From Bacillota bacterium (lineage in GTDB: Bacteria; Bacillota_A; Clostridia; Clostridiales; Clostridiaceae): DNA of 6,382 bases. The notes under the pieces are model-generated. The model had not been told where the DNA came from, did not search any database, and worked only from the letters and a program-made list of their open reading frames with translations. The position numbers and the translations under genes were made by a program. Location of the stretch: the NCBI GenBank assembly GCA_021780795.1, contig JAJXYA010000295.1, forward strand, positions 1 to 6,382. The letters are read 5' to 3'. Shown in pieces: positions 16 through 4,127 of the stretch; within the stretch, counting starts at the first letter, position 1; each line of letters starts with the position of its first letter.

Positions 16-759
16 CTATAAATTAAATATATCCTTTAGAACCTCATACCTCTCATGAGTAAGAAGAGCATCCTTATCTGTGTTTTTTAGCTTTACAACA
101 TAAGTCCATCTACCATAAGGATAAATTTTACAAATCATAGAAAGATTTATAATATAAGATTTGTGGCTTCGAAAGAATTGATTTTTATCTAATCTTTCTT
201 CTAATTCACTTAATGCTTCGGAGGTAATATAGCTATTATCCACAGTATAAATAACCGTATTTCTATCTTCTCTTTGAACAATAACTATATCATTTGTATC
301 TACAAAACTTATACCTTCTTTATTTTTAATTAGTATCTTATCTAATCCTTGCTCATGGCGGATTATTTTGTGCATTACCTCCTGATTTTCCTCACCATTT
401 AATGTTTTAATACGATTTAAAGTTTGATAAATCCTATCTAGTTTAAAAGGTTTTACAAGATAATCAAAAGCATAAAGTTGAAAAGCTTCTGTCATATAAG
501 TAGCATGTGCAGTAGCAAAAACTATGATTGTTTTAGGGTTTAAATCCATTATTCTTTTTGCACATTCTATTCCATTAAGCCTTGGCATCTCAACATCTAA
601 AAATACAACTTGCGGCCTTGATTCTTCAACAAAGGAGAGAACAGCCTCCCCATCGGCTGCCTCTCCTATAAGTTTAAAACCTTCTACTTTTTCAATGGCT
701 TTTTTCAAAACCATTCTCATGCCCTGTTCATCGTCTCCTATTATCACTTTAAATTCCAA
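16..759 (-). CDS. LytTR-family response regulator (receiver + LytTR DNA-binding domain)
   Basis: This 247-residue cytoplasmic transcription regulator should be phosphorylated by a partner kinase and bind DNA as a dimer. The receiver domain covers about residues 3-120. It shows the acidic pair D9-D10, the phospho-acceptor D55 in FLDVEMP, T83 in the FATAHA segment and K103 in LVKPF. A LytTR domain follows at about 138-243, with the typical FFRSHKSYIIN stretch at 196-206 and the late THERYEVLKD helix. The start is TTG at 757-759: in-frame stops lie just upstream, and the first internal ATG would remove the acidic pocket. The gene begins 6 bp after the stop of the 85-residue gene, and its ribosome binding site lies in that gene's end, so it is probably co-transcribed with floA. 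Its likely partner is the kinase at 2749-3609, because Spo0B-type two-TM kinases commonly pair with LytTR regulators. The family is certain; the pairing and target genes are inferred. Confidence 0.95.
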   Translation of the reverse strand: MEFKVIIGDDEQGMRMVLKKAIEKVEGFKLIGEAADGEAVLSFVEESRPQVVFLDVEMPRLNGIECAKRIMDLNPKTIIVFATAHATYMTEAFQLYAFDYLVKPFKLDRIYQTLNRIKTLNGEENQEVMHKIIRHEQGLDKILIKNKEGISFVDTNDIVIVQREDRNTVIYTVDNSYITSEALSELEERLDKNQFFRSHKSYIINLSMICKIYPYGRWTYVVKLKNTDKDALLTHERYEVLKDIFNL

Positions 760-764
760 CAGTT

Positions 765-770
765 ATCACC
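765..770 (-). promoter_or_regulatory. Ribosome binding site supporting a TTG start for the LytTR regulator
   Basis: On the minus strand GGTGAT lies 5 nt upstream of the TTG at 757-759 and matches the anti-Shine-Dalgarno 3' end AUCACC. A second purine stretch, AAGGAAG (772-778), lies 12 nt away. Both overlap the last codons or stop of the preceding 85-residue gene, which suggests translational coupling. The weak start codon may keep regulator levels below those of the upstream products. Confidence 0.5.
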
Positions 771-1023
771 GCTTCCTTCTTTTTGACTTTGGTTTACCAA
801 ATATTTCGGAATACACCATTGCTTGCACAATGTTTTCTTCATTGAAATCTAAATCTAAATATGATAATTCTTCTTTTCTCTCTACCTCTACCTTCAGAAC
901 TTCAGGCTTTTCCTTCTTAGTTGTAGTTGAGCAATTATATCTAGCATATTCCATTGATACTAATTTTCTGAGGTTCTCAGATTCCACATCTTTTGGTACG
1001 CCCTTGTCTCTAGATTTAAACAT
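766..1023 (-). CDS. Small soluble protein with basic C-terminal tail, function unknown
   Basis: I do not recognise this 85-residue protein. It has no signal peptide or membrane segment. The first half is charged and probably flexible, with one cysteine (C31) and a lysine/glutamate-rich linker at about 36-53. Residues 54-60 are acidic and hydrophobic (SYLDLDF). Residues 61-76 could form an amphipathic helix (EENIVQAMVYSEIF). The end, GKPKSKRRKR at 76-85, is strongly basic. The gene is real: its ATG follows a GAGGAG site at good spacing, it fits between floA (5 bp away) and the LytTR gene (6 bp away), and the frame fills the gap exactly. The basic tail could contact acidic membrane lipids, RNA or a partner protein. 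Its position suggests a role linked to FloA or to the regulator. In Bacillus subtilis floA is also followed by a small gene (yqfB), but I cannot show homology. Confidence 0.8.
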   Translation of the reverse strand: MFKSRDKGVPKDVESENLRKLVSMEYARYNCSTTTKKEKPEVLKVEVERKEELSYLDLDFNEENIVQAMVYSEIFGKPKSKRRKR

Positions 1024-1028
1024 AACTT

Positions 1029-2021
1029 CTACTCCTCAATATTCTTGGGTGCATTATACATATTTTCTTGCTTTTTATTCTTACTAGCTTTAGAAATAGA
1101 CTCTCTCATATTGGTATCTGCTATTACATTTTTCATATCATAATAATCCAAAACTCCTAGATTGCCGTCTCTTAATGCTGCTGCCATAGCTCTTGGAATT
1201 TCTGCTTCTGCTTCTACTACCGCTGCTCTCATTTCCTGCTCTCTTGCCACCGCCATTGCTCTTCTTTCTTCCGCCTTTGCCTGGGCTATATTTTTATCAG
1301 CTTCAGCTTGAAGTGTTTGAAGTTGTGCACCAATGTTTCTTCCAACATCTACGTCTGCAATATCTATAGATAATATTTCATAAGCAGTACCTGCATCTAG
1401 TCCTTTTGCAAGAACTGTTTTAGATATGGCATCTGGATTTTCTAAAACTTCTTTGTGAGAAGTTGCAGTACCTACTGTAGCTACAATACCTTCAGCAACC
1501 CTAGCAAGCACTGTTGCCTCTCCCGCTCCACCTATTAATCTATTTAAATTAGCTCTTACTGTTACCCTTGCCTTTGCTAAAAGCTCAATTCCATCCTTTG
1601 CAACTCCAGAAACATTTGGAGTTTCAATAACCCTCGGTGTTACACTCATTTTTACTGCTTCAAGTACATCTCTACCTGCAAGATCGATAGCTGCTGCCCT
1701 TTCAAAAGGCAAATCGAAACTTGCTCTATGAGATGCAATAAGTGCATTTACTACTGCATCAACATTTCCTCCAGCTAAATAGTGAGCCTCTAATTGATTT
1801 ACACTTACTTCTACTCCACCCTTTGTTGCTTTTATTAGTGGTATCACAATCTTCTTAGGCGTAACCCTTCTTAACCTCATACCTATCAAATTGAAAAAAC
1901 TAACCTTCACATTTGCAGCTAAGGCCGAAATCCATAATCCCACTGGCACAAAACTTAAAAACAAAGCTAAAATACATGCTATAACTCCTATAATAATAAC
2001 TAGAGCAATAGTACTATCCAT
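1029..2021 (-). CDS. floA: Flotillin-like membrane scaffold FloA
   Basis: FloA proteins oligomerise on the inner face of the cytoplasmic membrane, organise functional membrane microdomains and affect membrane fluidity. In Bacillus they support several kinases and proteases. This 330-residue protein is full length for the family (B. subtilis FloA has 331). A hydrophobic membrane anchor lies at about 4-25. The SPFH-like domain covers about 40-230, with family-typical segments such as [20 protein letters not shown] and [20 protein letters not shown]. An Ala/Glu/Arg-rich coiled coil follows at about 235-285, then a polar tail at 305-330. The ATG is preceded by AAGGGGG (2029-2035) at 7 nt. It follows the NfeD gene by 68 bp, with no convincing terminator between them. 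The nfeD-floA order matches the usual partnership of these families. The unusual neighbours are the kinase upstream and the regulator downstream. Confidence 0.97.
1032..1037 (-). promoter_or_regulatory. Ribosome binding site of the 85-residue gene, embedded in the end of floA
   Basis: The last two codons of floA (GAG GAG, encoding the C-terminal Glu-Glu) double as the GAGGAG ribosome binding site for the next gene. Its ATG lies 8 nt further on, after the floA TAG stop at 1029-1031. Ribosomes finishing floA are thus placed next to the start of the small gene, which argues for coupled translation. Confidence 0.65.
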
Positions 2022-2089
2022 AATGTTACCCCCTTCTATTTTTTAATAATATTAATCAATATATTATTATTTACTTTGAGCGATTAATC

Positions 2090-2614
2090 CTACTTTTTAT
2101 AAGTAATTTTACTTTCAGTGAGTACTCTTACAACAATCCTTCGTCCTTCTACTTTTATAATTTTCACCTTCGTATTCTGCGAAATAAATTCTCCTTCTGA
2201 AACTACATCCAATTTTATTCCATTAAACTCCGCAGTACCTGCGGGCCTTAAAATTGTTAATGCAACACCTTCTTGCCCTACAAAATATTCAAGGTCCTCC
2301 GCTCCGATGTATCCATTTTCCTTTTTTTGAGTTTCATGCAAAATAAGGATTTTTGAGAGACGTCCTTTTGTTACAGATTTCAAAACAAAATTAAGCGTTA
2401 CTCCGAGTATTGCAATTATAATACCTAGGAGCACCAATACTTCAATAACGCTATTAGCAGTGAGTACTACCCCTGCAATAAGAAGTATTGCGCCTAAAAT
2501 TCCTGGTATACCAAAGCCCGGATGAAACATCTCTACAATCACAAATATGAACCCAAATGCAAAACACATAATAGCAAGCCCGCTTATATTTGATAAAAAA
2601 CTTATTAGCTCCAT
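2090..2614 (-). CDS. nfeD: Short-form NfeD membrane protein (TM region + OB-fold domain)
   Basis: NfeD proteins are partners of flotillins and similar SPFH proteins. This 174-residue protein is the short form, without the N-terminal ClpP-like serine protease domain of long NfeD proteins. It has hydrophobic segments at about 6-29, 36-53 and 56-78, with the conserved HPGFGIPG turn at 31-38 between the first two. A soluble C-terminal OB-fold domain follows (about 110-170: GQEGVALTILRPAGTAEFNG, then a VSEGEFI strand and KVEGRRIVVRVL). In size and layout it resembles B. subtilis YuaF (partner of FloT) rather than the long YqeZ that sits with FloA in that species. The ATG is preceded by the G-rich site AAGGGGGT (2621-2628) at 6 nt. 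The gene lies 134 bp downstream of the kinase and 68 bp upstream of floA, so it may be transcribed from the kinase promoter, its own promoter or both. Confidence 0.92.
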   Translation of the reverse strand: MELISFLSNISGLAIMCFAFGFIFVIVEMFHPGFGIPGILGAILLIAGVVLTANSVIEVLVLLGIIIAILGVTLNFVLKSVTKGRLSKILILHETQKKENGYIGAEDLEYFVGQEGVALTILRPAGTAEFNGIKLDVVSEGEFISQNTKVKIIKVEGRRIVVRVLTESKITYKK

Positions 2615-2633
2615 ACCACCACCCCCTTGAAAA

Positions 2634-2661
2634 TTTATATATTTACCTTATGACAATACAA
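2634..2661 (-). promoter_or_regulatory. Possible sigma-A-like promoter in front of nfeD
   Basis: On the minus strand TTGTAT (2656-2661) and TATAAA (2634-2639) are separated by 16 nt. Transcription would start roughly 12-15 nt before the nfeD ATG, leaving a short leader that just contains the ribosome binding site. The -10 is good and the -35 is poor (3 of 6). In such AT-rich sequence this match is only suggestive. Confidence 0.3.
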
Positions 2662-2697
2662 TACACCCTTAGTATTTTAAAAAGAATAGATAATCGT

Positions 2698-2720
2698 TAA
2701 ACAATACATATGCTTGTCTA
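2698..2720. repeat. Interrupted inverted repeat between kinase gene and nfeD, candidate operator
   Basis: The arms TAAACAA (2698-2704) and TTGTCTA (2714-2720) are complementary at 6 of 7 positions. They are separated by 9 bp holding a CATATG. The arm centres lie 16 bp apart, between one and two helical turns. The repeat sits about 85 bp upstream of the nfeD start and upstream of the possible promoter at 2634-2661, where an activator could bind. It has no T-tract and is not a terminator. No binding protein can be named. Confidence 0.35.
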
Positions 2721-2748
2721 AAATGTCCTATTTACAGTATTATATTTT

Positions 2749-3609
2749 TTATCGAGGAATCCACCCCTCAAAAATAGTAGCCTCACTATCACTAAATATT
2801 TCAATATCTCCCTCGTATTTTTGGAGGATATCTTTTACAATATATAATCCCATACCTTCTCCTTGCTCTCCCTTTGTGGTGACTCCAGCGTCAAAAATTC
2901 TATTAATCCATTCTTCTCTAATCCTAGGGCCATTGTTTTTAATCCTAAATCTATAGGTCTTTAAATCCTCAGACAGTTCAATTTTAATAATTCTATTTTC
3001 TCCTCTCTCTTGAAGCGCATAAATAGCATTATCAATAATATTTCCAAGCACTCTGCAAAACTCCCAGGCTGGCACCTTTAAATCTTCTAGTGCAGAGGTT
3101 ATTAAAATTTCTGTTTTAATTCCCCTTTTTTCTCCATAAAGTATTTTTGCTTGGAGCAGTGCATTTACCGCAGGATTTGAGGTCTTTAATACCTTGTTTA
3201 TCCTTTGAATATCTTTAAATACCTTTTCAATGTATCCTGTGGCTTCAAAGTATTCTTCCATTTCCATTAAACTATACACTACTTGTAAATGGTTCATGAA
3301 ATCATGCCTTTGGCCTCTAAGTGTTTTATTTAAATCTTCTAACTGTCCTAAAGTACTCTTTAACATACTGTATTCCATGTTATTCTCATTTAAAGAACTA
3401 ATATCTTTAATAACAAAAAAACTGTTAATAACACCAAGAACTATTAATACATATATAATCAATTCCCCATTATTAAATTTTTCTTGAAAGTTCAGGAAGT
3501 TTTTATCGAAGTAATTATATATTACCACTCCTAAAATGGTGCTAACTTGAATTACATTTAAAAAAATCACTGTAACTATAGTTTTATTAACATTTAATTT
3601 TTTCTGCAT
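2749..3609 (-). CDS. Two-TM sensor histidine kinase (Spo0B-type phosphoacceptor box, GHKL ATPase)
   Basis: This 286-residue membrane kinase should autophosphorylate and pass the phosphate to a response regulator. Two membrane helices lie at about 10-33 and 50-68, joined by a loop of only about 15 residues, so there is no room for an extracellular sensor domain. The phosphoacceptor helix carries H102 in RHDFMNHLQ, the type found in Spo0B-like, CitA/DcuS and AgrC/NatK-like kinases. The GHKL ATPase domain shows an N box (NIIDNAIYA, 190-198), a G1-like segment (KNNGPRI, 224-230) and a G2 box (GEGMGLYIV, 250-258). The ATG is preceded by AGGAGG (3622-3627) at a rather long 12 nt; an in-frame TAG just upstream excludes a longer form. 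It is the first gene of the minus-strand group that continues with nfeD, floA, the 85-residue gene and the LytTR regulator. That regulator is its probable partner, although three genes separate them. Confidence 0.93.
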   Translation of the reverse strand: MQKKLNVNKTIVTVIFLNVIQVSTILGVVIYNYFDKNFLNFQEKFNNGELIIYVLIVLGVINSFFVIKDISSLNENNMEYSMLKSTLGQLEDLNKTLRGQRHDFMNHLQVVYSLMEMEEYFEATGYIEKVFKDIQRINKVLKTSNPAVNALLQAKILYGEKRGIKTEILITSALEDLKVPAWEFCRVLGNIIDNAIYALQERGENRIIKIELSEDLKTYRFRIKNNGPRIREEWINRIFDAGVTTKGEQGEGMGLYIVKDILQKYEGDIEIFSDSEATIFEGWIPR

Positions 3610-3806: not shown

Positions 3807-4127
3807 ATGTCAAAAATTAACTGTAGCGTTGAAAATTGCTCTCACAATAATGAAAACACCTGTTATGCTAACGTAATAAATGTTGGTGGGAAAAGTGCAA
3901 AAAAAGATTGTGACACTTGTTGTGCTTCTTTCTTAGATAATAAGCATTATGACCATCTTACAAGTAACATTAATGAAAAGGGTAATGAGTGCAGCGCAAT
4001 TACCTGTAATGTGGGTACCTGCACTTATAACTCTAATAATCTCTGTAGTGCTGAGTCCATAGATGTTAGTGGCAAAGATGTTAATCTCTACTTAGAAACT
4101 AACTGTTCAACTTTTAAAACCACATAA
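3807..4127 (+). CDS. Cysteine-rich protein with two DUF1540 units
   Basis: This 106-residue protein has 11 cysteines and is built from two DUF1540-type units, at about 4-42 and 65-103. Both units have the same spacing C-x4-C-x7-C-x19-C (C6, C11, C19, C39 and C67, C72, C80, C100). Shared surroundings include the Asn-rich NNENTC/NSNNLC segments and V-x-GK turns. Unit 1 has extra cysteines C35 and C38, and C62 lies in the linker. No signal peptide or membrane segment is visible. The function of DUF1540 is unknown; four regularly spaced cysteines per unit suggest a small metal site or a disulphide-stabilised fold, but the sequence does not decide between them. The start is supported by AAGGAGGG at 6 nt. 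It is the only plus-strand gene here. It converges on the rubrerythrin gene and probably ends at the hairpin at 4152-4183. It may be a single-gene transcript. Confidence 0.9.
   Translation: MSKINCSVENCSHNNENTCYANVINVGGKSAKKDCDTCCASFLDNKHYDHLTSNINEKGNECSAITCNVGTCTYNSNNLCSAESIDVSGKDVNLYLETNCSTFKTT

Follow-up and report, generated by a model that had tools for sequence, protein, structure and literature searches.

The control and responses of bacterial flotillins are little understood outside Bacillus and Staphylococcus. The operon yqeZ-yqfA-yqfB of Bacillus subtilis is reported to be under sigma-W (PMC3498285), which is described as responding to membrane stress (PMC8581546). Agr-type loci consist of a SPOB_a/GHKL kinase and a LytTR regulator with other genes, AgrB and AgrD, between them. 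For LytTR regulators, sites composed of direct repeats with 12 bp between them have been reported (PMC6193735), and AgrA repeats are described upstream of P2 and P3 (PMC4227749). The window analyzed here, a 6,382-nucleotide stretch of contig JAJXYA010000295.1, contains five open reading frames on the minus strand which, according to the ORF list and domain scans, encode the following proteins in the order of transcription.

2749..3609, minus strand: kinase, 286 aa; SPOB_a, HATPase_c and HATPase_c_5, with a GHKL ATPase after SPOB_a
2090..2614, minus strand: NfeD, 174 aa; three hydrophobic segments, then the NfeD partner-binding domain
1029..2021, minus strand: FloA, flotillin-like protein, 330 aa; PF12127 (E 1.1e-150), NF010186 above cut-off
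766..1023, minus strand: FloA-linked small protein, 85 aa; C-terminus ...VYSEIFGKPKSKRRKR
16..759, minus strand: response regulator, 247 aa; TTG start; Response_reg receiver and LytTR DNA-binding domain

The gaps from the kinase to the regulator are 134, 68, 5 and 6 bp, and FloA directly follows NfeD, as in an nfeD-floA operon. Hydrophobic segments of the kinase lie near residues 14-30 and 51-67, ahead of the SPOB_a domain with H102. This histidine, the conserved phosphoacceptor preceding the ATPase domain, and D55 of the regulator, the aspartate of the receiver which precedes LytTR, do not vary across 12 aligned homologues. The best 60 of 132 rows of a comparison with solved structures included matches to receiver domains. 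By its domains, the cassette is a LytTR two-component system. The nine window proteins scanned include no second kinase or regulator; the remaining ones are a DUF1540 protein, a rubrerythrin, a pseudouridine synthase and the end of a membrane protein with only a weak K+ transporter match. The preliminary description, which had reported this five-gene order on one strand, the last three genes almost touching and no alternative partner in the window, is thus confirmed in these respects. A plasmid origin was considered and rejected, as the window had no megablast match among 72,556 plasmid records.

A scan of genome contigs with the kinase as query gave 51 loci, of which 11 were near-full-length matches with 44-88% identity. 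In each of the 11, NfeD and the regulator are encoded on the strand of the kinase, and in 10 FloA lies between them; the exception, L007, consists of kinase, NfeD and regulator. The hosts include Clostridium tagluense, C. thailandense, C. cibarium, C. hydrogeniformans and Ruminiclostridium papyrosolvens, so the order occurs in more than one strain; its restriction to a single strain had been named as counting against a dedicated system. Flanking genes vary among the cassette loci while the unit stays: the pseudouridine synthase, rubrerythrin and DUF1540 genes adjoin it in L001 and L002 and in none of L003-L011. Different flanks around the same arrangement in related genomes indicate that the arrangement is more than chance. 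The DUF1540 gene (window 3807-4127, plus strand) is divergent from the kinase gene and adjoins it solely in L001 and L002 among L001-L011. The cassette NfeD of Clostridium sp. OS1-26 is broken into two reading frames (L003:9023-9570).

The search was extended with the regulator, which in seven genomes scored 399-467 bits at the cassette, versus 168 for the best paralogue. Among 291 Clostridia genomes, 24 had a match at E<=1e-55. Nineteen of these matches scored at least 281 bits, and all 19 have kinase and NfeD upstream of the regulator; G001 and G005 had already been compared, 17 more loci were retrieved, and among them G206 is the genome of L007. FloA lies inside the cassette in 18 of the 19, and G206 carries FloA elsewhere in the genome. 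The order in G020 is kinase, NfeD, regulator, FloA, small gene, and the cassette of G022 is without the small gene at that place. The regulator of G273 (L067:331-1053) contains an in-frame stop and reads as two ORFs. The other five matches reached 207-221 bits; the three examined (L069-L071) carry agr genes, AgrB being confirmed in two of them (L069, L070) and AgrD likewise in two (L070, L071).

The regulator was found in 39 of 194 Clostridiaceae genomes. FloA adjoins it in all 31 newly retrieved loci (eight others had already been compared), and the kinase is present in 29 of them; the contigs of L072 and L101 end before the kinase position. A search of 398 genomes of the wider phylum gave nine regulator matches at E<=1e-75, one of them G001, also part of the Clostridia sample. 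The loci of the other eight (269-281 bits) had no match to NfeD or FloA. The locus of one wider relative (L178:2534-9223) encodes two kinases that resemble each other, together with an AgrB and a single regulator. Before counting, L052, L076 and L077 were excluded, since they come from the genomes of L007, L008 and L005, respectively. The counts below refer to 54 distinct cassettes and to 56 cassette loci with FloA; L067 (regulator stop), L072 and L101 (contigs ending early) belong to the latter set and lie outside the former.

FloA is present in 48 of the 194 Clostridiaceae genomes, among them all 39 with the regulator, and in 90 of the 291 Clostridia genomes, including all 19 with the cassette-type regulator. 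It is also present in all five genomes with 207-221-bit regulator matches, so that the co-occurrence partly reflects lineage. The nine Clostridiaceae FloA loci without the regulator (L167-L175) were examined. L170 is a cassette cut by a contig end, and the element described below is present there at one mismatch. L167 and L172-L175 have a longer NfeD or an NfeD pair and neither kinase nor regulator. L168, L169 and L171 have kept nfeD, floA and the small gene, and both kinase and regulator are absent. L168 and L171 share genes on both flanks with the cassette locus L009, which shares its site with cassette L100, and L169 shares genes on both flanks with cassettes L090 and L095. The best kinase match anywhere in these three genomes reached 99-106 bits, versus at least 417 in four cassette genomes.

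The joint absence of two non-adjacent genes, with the three genes between them kept, is strong evidence that kinase and regulator form a working pair. We infer that the pair is missing from these three loci through loss, and its absence could instead be ancestral. Inheritance of the kinase together with the regulator was found in the loci retrieved with the kinase, in those retrieved with the regulator and at the sites lacking the pair; among the complete loci examined, none keeps just one signalling gene beside nfeD-floA. Tree distances over 53 cassettes agree with the pairing, giving a kinase-regulator correlation of 0.895 and a partial correlation, given FloA, of 0.56, values confounded by kinship. 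Many of the compared genomes are closely related, which speaks for the gene order being a relic of common descent without functional coupling; yet the flanks change around a constant unit, divergent regulators near 280 bits keep the order, and the two signalling genes are absent together, which makes a mere relic highly improbable. G186 carries a cassette-like NfeD (223 bits) and FloA (L112:3409-4959), beside which no kinase, regulator or small gene was detected, and also a second NfeD-FloA pair (L113).

Alignment of the kinase-nfeD gaps revealed a conserved element, for which the following features are annotated in the window.

2697..2727, minus strand: conserved two-part element upstream of nfeD, GACATTT-N12-TGTATNNTT at 2727-2700
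2726-2718 and 2705-2697, minus strand: two LytTR-like boxes 21 bp apart, a possible reading of the element which a formal scan supports weakly
2658..2663, minus strand: possible nfeD -10 region, TATTGT, 4/6 of TATAAT (proposed)

Better -10 matches occur at the aligned position in several relatives. The search pattern has 14 fixed bases and was applied with up to two mismatches within 350 bp upstream of nfeD. It is present in 47 of the 54 cassettes (20 exact) and missing from seven, a count that is partly circular since the pattern was drawn from these same cassettes; the contrasts are not. These are 1/53 upstream of the kinase, 0/54 upstream of the regulator, 5/54 on the opposite strand, 1/27 nfeD genes of other FloA loci and 0.6% of Markov sequences. 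When cassettes are clustered by regulator identity, the element is found in 19/26 clusters at 80%, 14/19 at 70% and 3/6 at 60%. None of the three loci lacking the pair (L168, L169, L171) has it upstream of nfeD; by eye, L168 and L171 have a TTGACA-17-TATATT-like sequence there instead. In L091 and L094 the kinase-nfeD gap is extended, between the element and nfeD, by an additional segment that is alike in both and self-complementary at its ends; it may be a small inserted repeat.

Read as direct repeats, the two parts of the element would be spaced by 21 bp, which corresponds to the reported LytTR geometry; a generic LytTR direct-repeat scan gave this reading weak support, with a slight rise at shift 21 (14.39 vs 13.91). 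Some copies read GACAGTTTAG, which we take to be close to the AgrA box. The weakness of the scan would also suit a standard promoter or a site recognised by some unrelated regulator, the pair then controlling other genes and its linkage being incidental, and by eye GACA-N17-TATNNT can be read as -35 and -10. Against this, nfeD genes without the pair also lack the element, both in the three loci and in all but one of the 27 others, and in cassette genomes further copies precede an acyltransferase gene. We regard an ordinary promoter or foreign site as distinctly unlikely.

Further matches were sought in cassette genomes with two patterns. A looser pattern gave 42 matches in 30 genomes, 15 at cassettes and 27 elsewhere; as the backward control gave 18, most single matches among the 27 may be chance. 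The loci of 20 of these 27 were examined. A stricter pattern gave 23 matches in 16 genomes, versus 2 in the backward control, with 15 at cassette nfeD and 8 elsewhere. Five of the eight lie upstream of one 333-aa acyltransferase (PF01757), which is VanT-like by NCBIfam, far under cut-off. An acyltransferase match is present in 10 of the 16 genomes, and the element (up to one mismatch, within 600 bp upstream) accompanies it in seven of the 10 and in none of the other three; six of the seven genes were found via the element, several of the genomes are close relatives, and the seventh is a different, 676-aa protein. Candidates seen in single genomes are ABC transporters, a BlaI/BlaR1 pair and a Band_7_1 SPFH gene; as leads only, they point to the envelope. 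The last of these, in G074 (L150:2998-4211), encodes another SPFH protein, with zinc ribbons, and the element copy before it could be chance.

A transcription end between the kinase and nfeD had been named in the preliminary description as an argument against shared control. Terminator-like sites were found in 0/54 kinase-nfeD gaps and in 0/53 of each of the next two gaps, compared with 9/54 upstream of the kinase and 15/54 downstream of the regulator, a distribution which suggests a single transcription unit containing a regulated internal promoter for nfeD. The comparative data, namely the conserved order, the co-occurrence, the joint absence of the pair and the absence of the element from the same loci, give good support to the proposal that nfeD-floA is under the control of its own kinase and regulator. 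It is likely, with a good deal of confidence, that a dedicated kinase/LytTR pair controls nfeD, floA, the small gene and the regulator as a self-contained circuit. The control is probably activation with positive feedback; because the stretch ends with the regulator gene, activation would close a positive loop. By analogy, the best reading of the circuit is an envelope-stress response, the clostridial counterpart of sigma-W control in Bacillus.

In the proposed mechanism, the small membrane kinase would sense a disturbance in or near the bilayer; two hydrophobic segments with a short loop, present in 51 of 54 cassettes, suggest sensing within the membrane or through partners. It would phosphorylate the LytTR regulator at D55, as domains and pairing indicate, and the regulator would act via the two-part element upstream of nfeD, to which the distribution of the element points, most likely raising transcription of nfeD, floA, the small gene and its own gene. 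Read-through from the kinase may supply the basal level. The output would be an NfeD/FloA assembly together with the small partner; certain species would add further envelope genes, that of the membrane acyltransferase among them.

The other half of the preliminary proposal, in which the scaffold passes signals to the kinase, is plausible. FloA and NfeD might then also belong to the sensor side, NfeD with or without FloA holding or scaffolding the kinase until damaged membrane protein or bilayer disorder titrates them away and frees it, comparable to LiaF with LiaS. The same two-segment architecture of the kinase would fit this arrangement, as would the retention of kinase, NfeD and regulator without FloA in L007 and the correlation of kinase and NfeD distances beyond the regulator (partial 0.66), although distance correlations are confounded by kinship. 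The persistence of nfeD, floA and the small gene without the pair in L168, L169 and L171 shows that they do not need it. Flotillins are reported to alter kinase dimerisation in B. subtilis (PMC4409396) and FloA-NfeD to hold unfolded proteins in S. aureus (PMC11222466), whereas another study reports no lasting flotillin-kinase association (PMC4928834); on the strength of these reports, FloA/NfeD may feed back on the kinase. A role on the sensor side is rather unlikely in our estimation. Its extension, in which free NfeD/FloA silences the kinase until drawn off and the regulator then boosts NfeD/FloA and itself, would amount to a closed microdomain homeostat built on an agr-related pair, and is to be taken as a tentative idea, doubtful to a similar degree.

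The output of the dedicated circuit, as preferred here, would include the 85-residue protein, for which the Pfam and NCBIfam scans of the ORF gave no family match. PF27722.1 is precomputed for this protein and its relatives; the Pfam scan performed here did not report that model. The family ends in a SEILGKP-like motif. A strict rule for this C-terminal motif marks the ORF after FloA in 49/56 cassette loci and 19/29 other FloA loci, and 0/6178 other ORFs, the rule having been written from such proteins. Near misses counted by eye raise the numbers to 55/56 and 25/29. In L064 the small gene follows FloA though the regulator precedes FloA, and L007, which is without FloA, has no room for the small gene. 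The small gene thus goes with FloA and not with the regulator, and its context marks the product as a FloA partner. In several non-cassette loci (L103-L131) the SEILGKP-type protein begins, by eye, with a hydrophobic stretch, which the window copy (766-1023) does not.

In many clostridia, the arrangement makes a connection between bacterial membrane microdomains and the sensing of membrane stress open to test. The linked pair is a direct handle in strict anaerobes, where the inducing stress would tell what the microdomains are for, and corresponding sites that have or lack the pair offer a natural contrast. The small FloA-linked family, whose genes follow most of the FloA genes examined, provides a fresh starting point for finding flotillin partners. 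The earlier remark that no system with this layout had been described agrees with the open-licence PMC literature, in which no description of a flotillin operon bracketed by its own kinase/regulator pair was found among the matches listed.

Agr-type loci contain the nearest relatives found of the cassette regulator and share with the cassette the kinase type, the LytTR regulator and the presence of other genes between them; the cassette has the flotillin module in the place of AgrB and AgrD, neither of which was matched among the window proteins. A tree built from 40 regulators places 11 non-cassette relatives on one side of a branch (support 90/89); its outgroups are very long, and it does not show the cassette rows as one clade. 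LytTR Regulatory Systems consist of a membrane inhibitor and a LytTR regulator, with no kinase. The cassette differs from them in having a receiver domain in its regulator and a histidine kinase that partners it. HdrRM and BrsRM, which belong to these systems, are described as combining LytTR output and positive autoregulation with direct repeats that lie upstream of the operon, separated by 12 bp (PMC6193735). LiaFSR and PSP-linked systems are reported to link a kinase and regulator to a membrane-protecting effector operon (PMC11237479), as here; their regulator is of the wHTH type, while the cassette has a LytTR regulator and a flotillin effector, and the scanned window proteins include no PspA/LiaH-type effector and no LiaF. 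The yqeZ-yqfA-yqfB operon of B. subtilis resembles the cassette in that NfeD and FloA are followed by a third gene and, as reported, in stress-linked control (PMC3498285, PMC8581546); that operon is controlled by an ECF sigma factor, whereas the clostridial cassette has a linked two-component pair.
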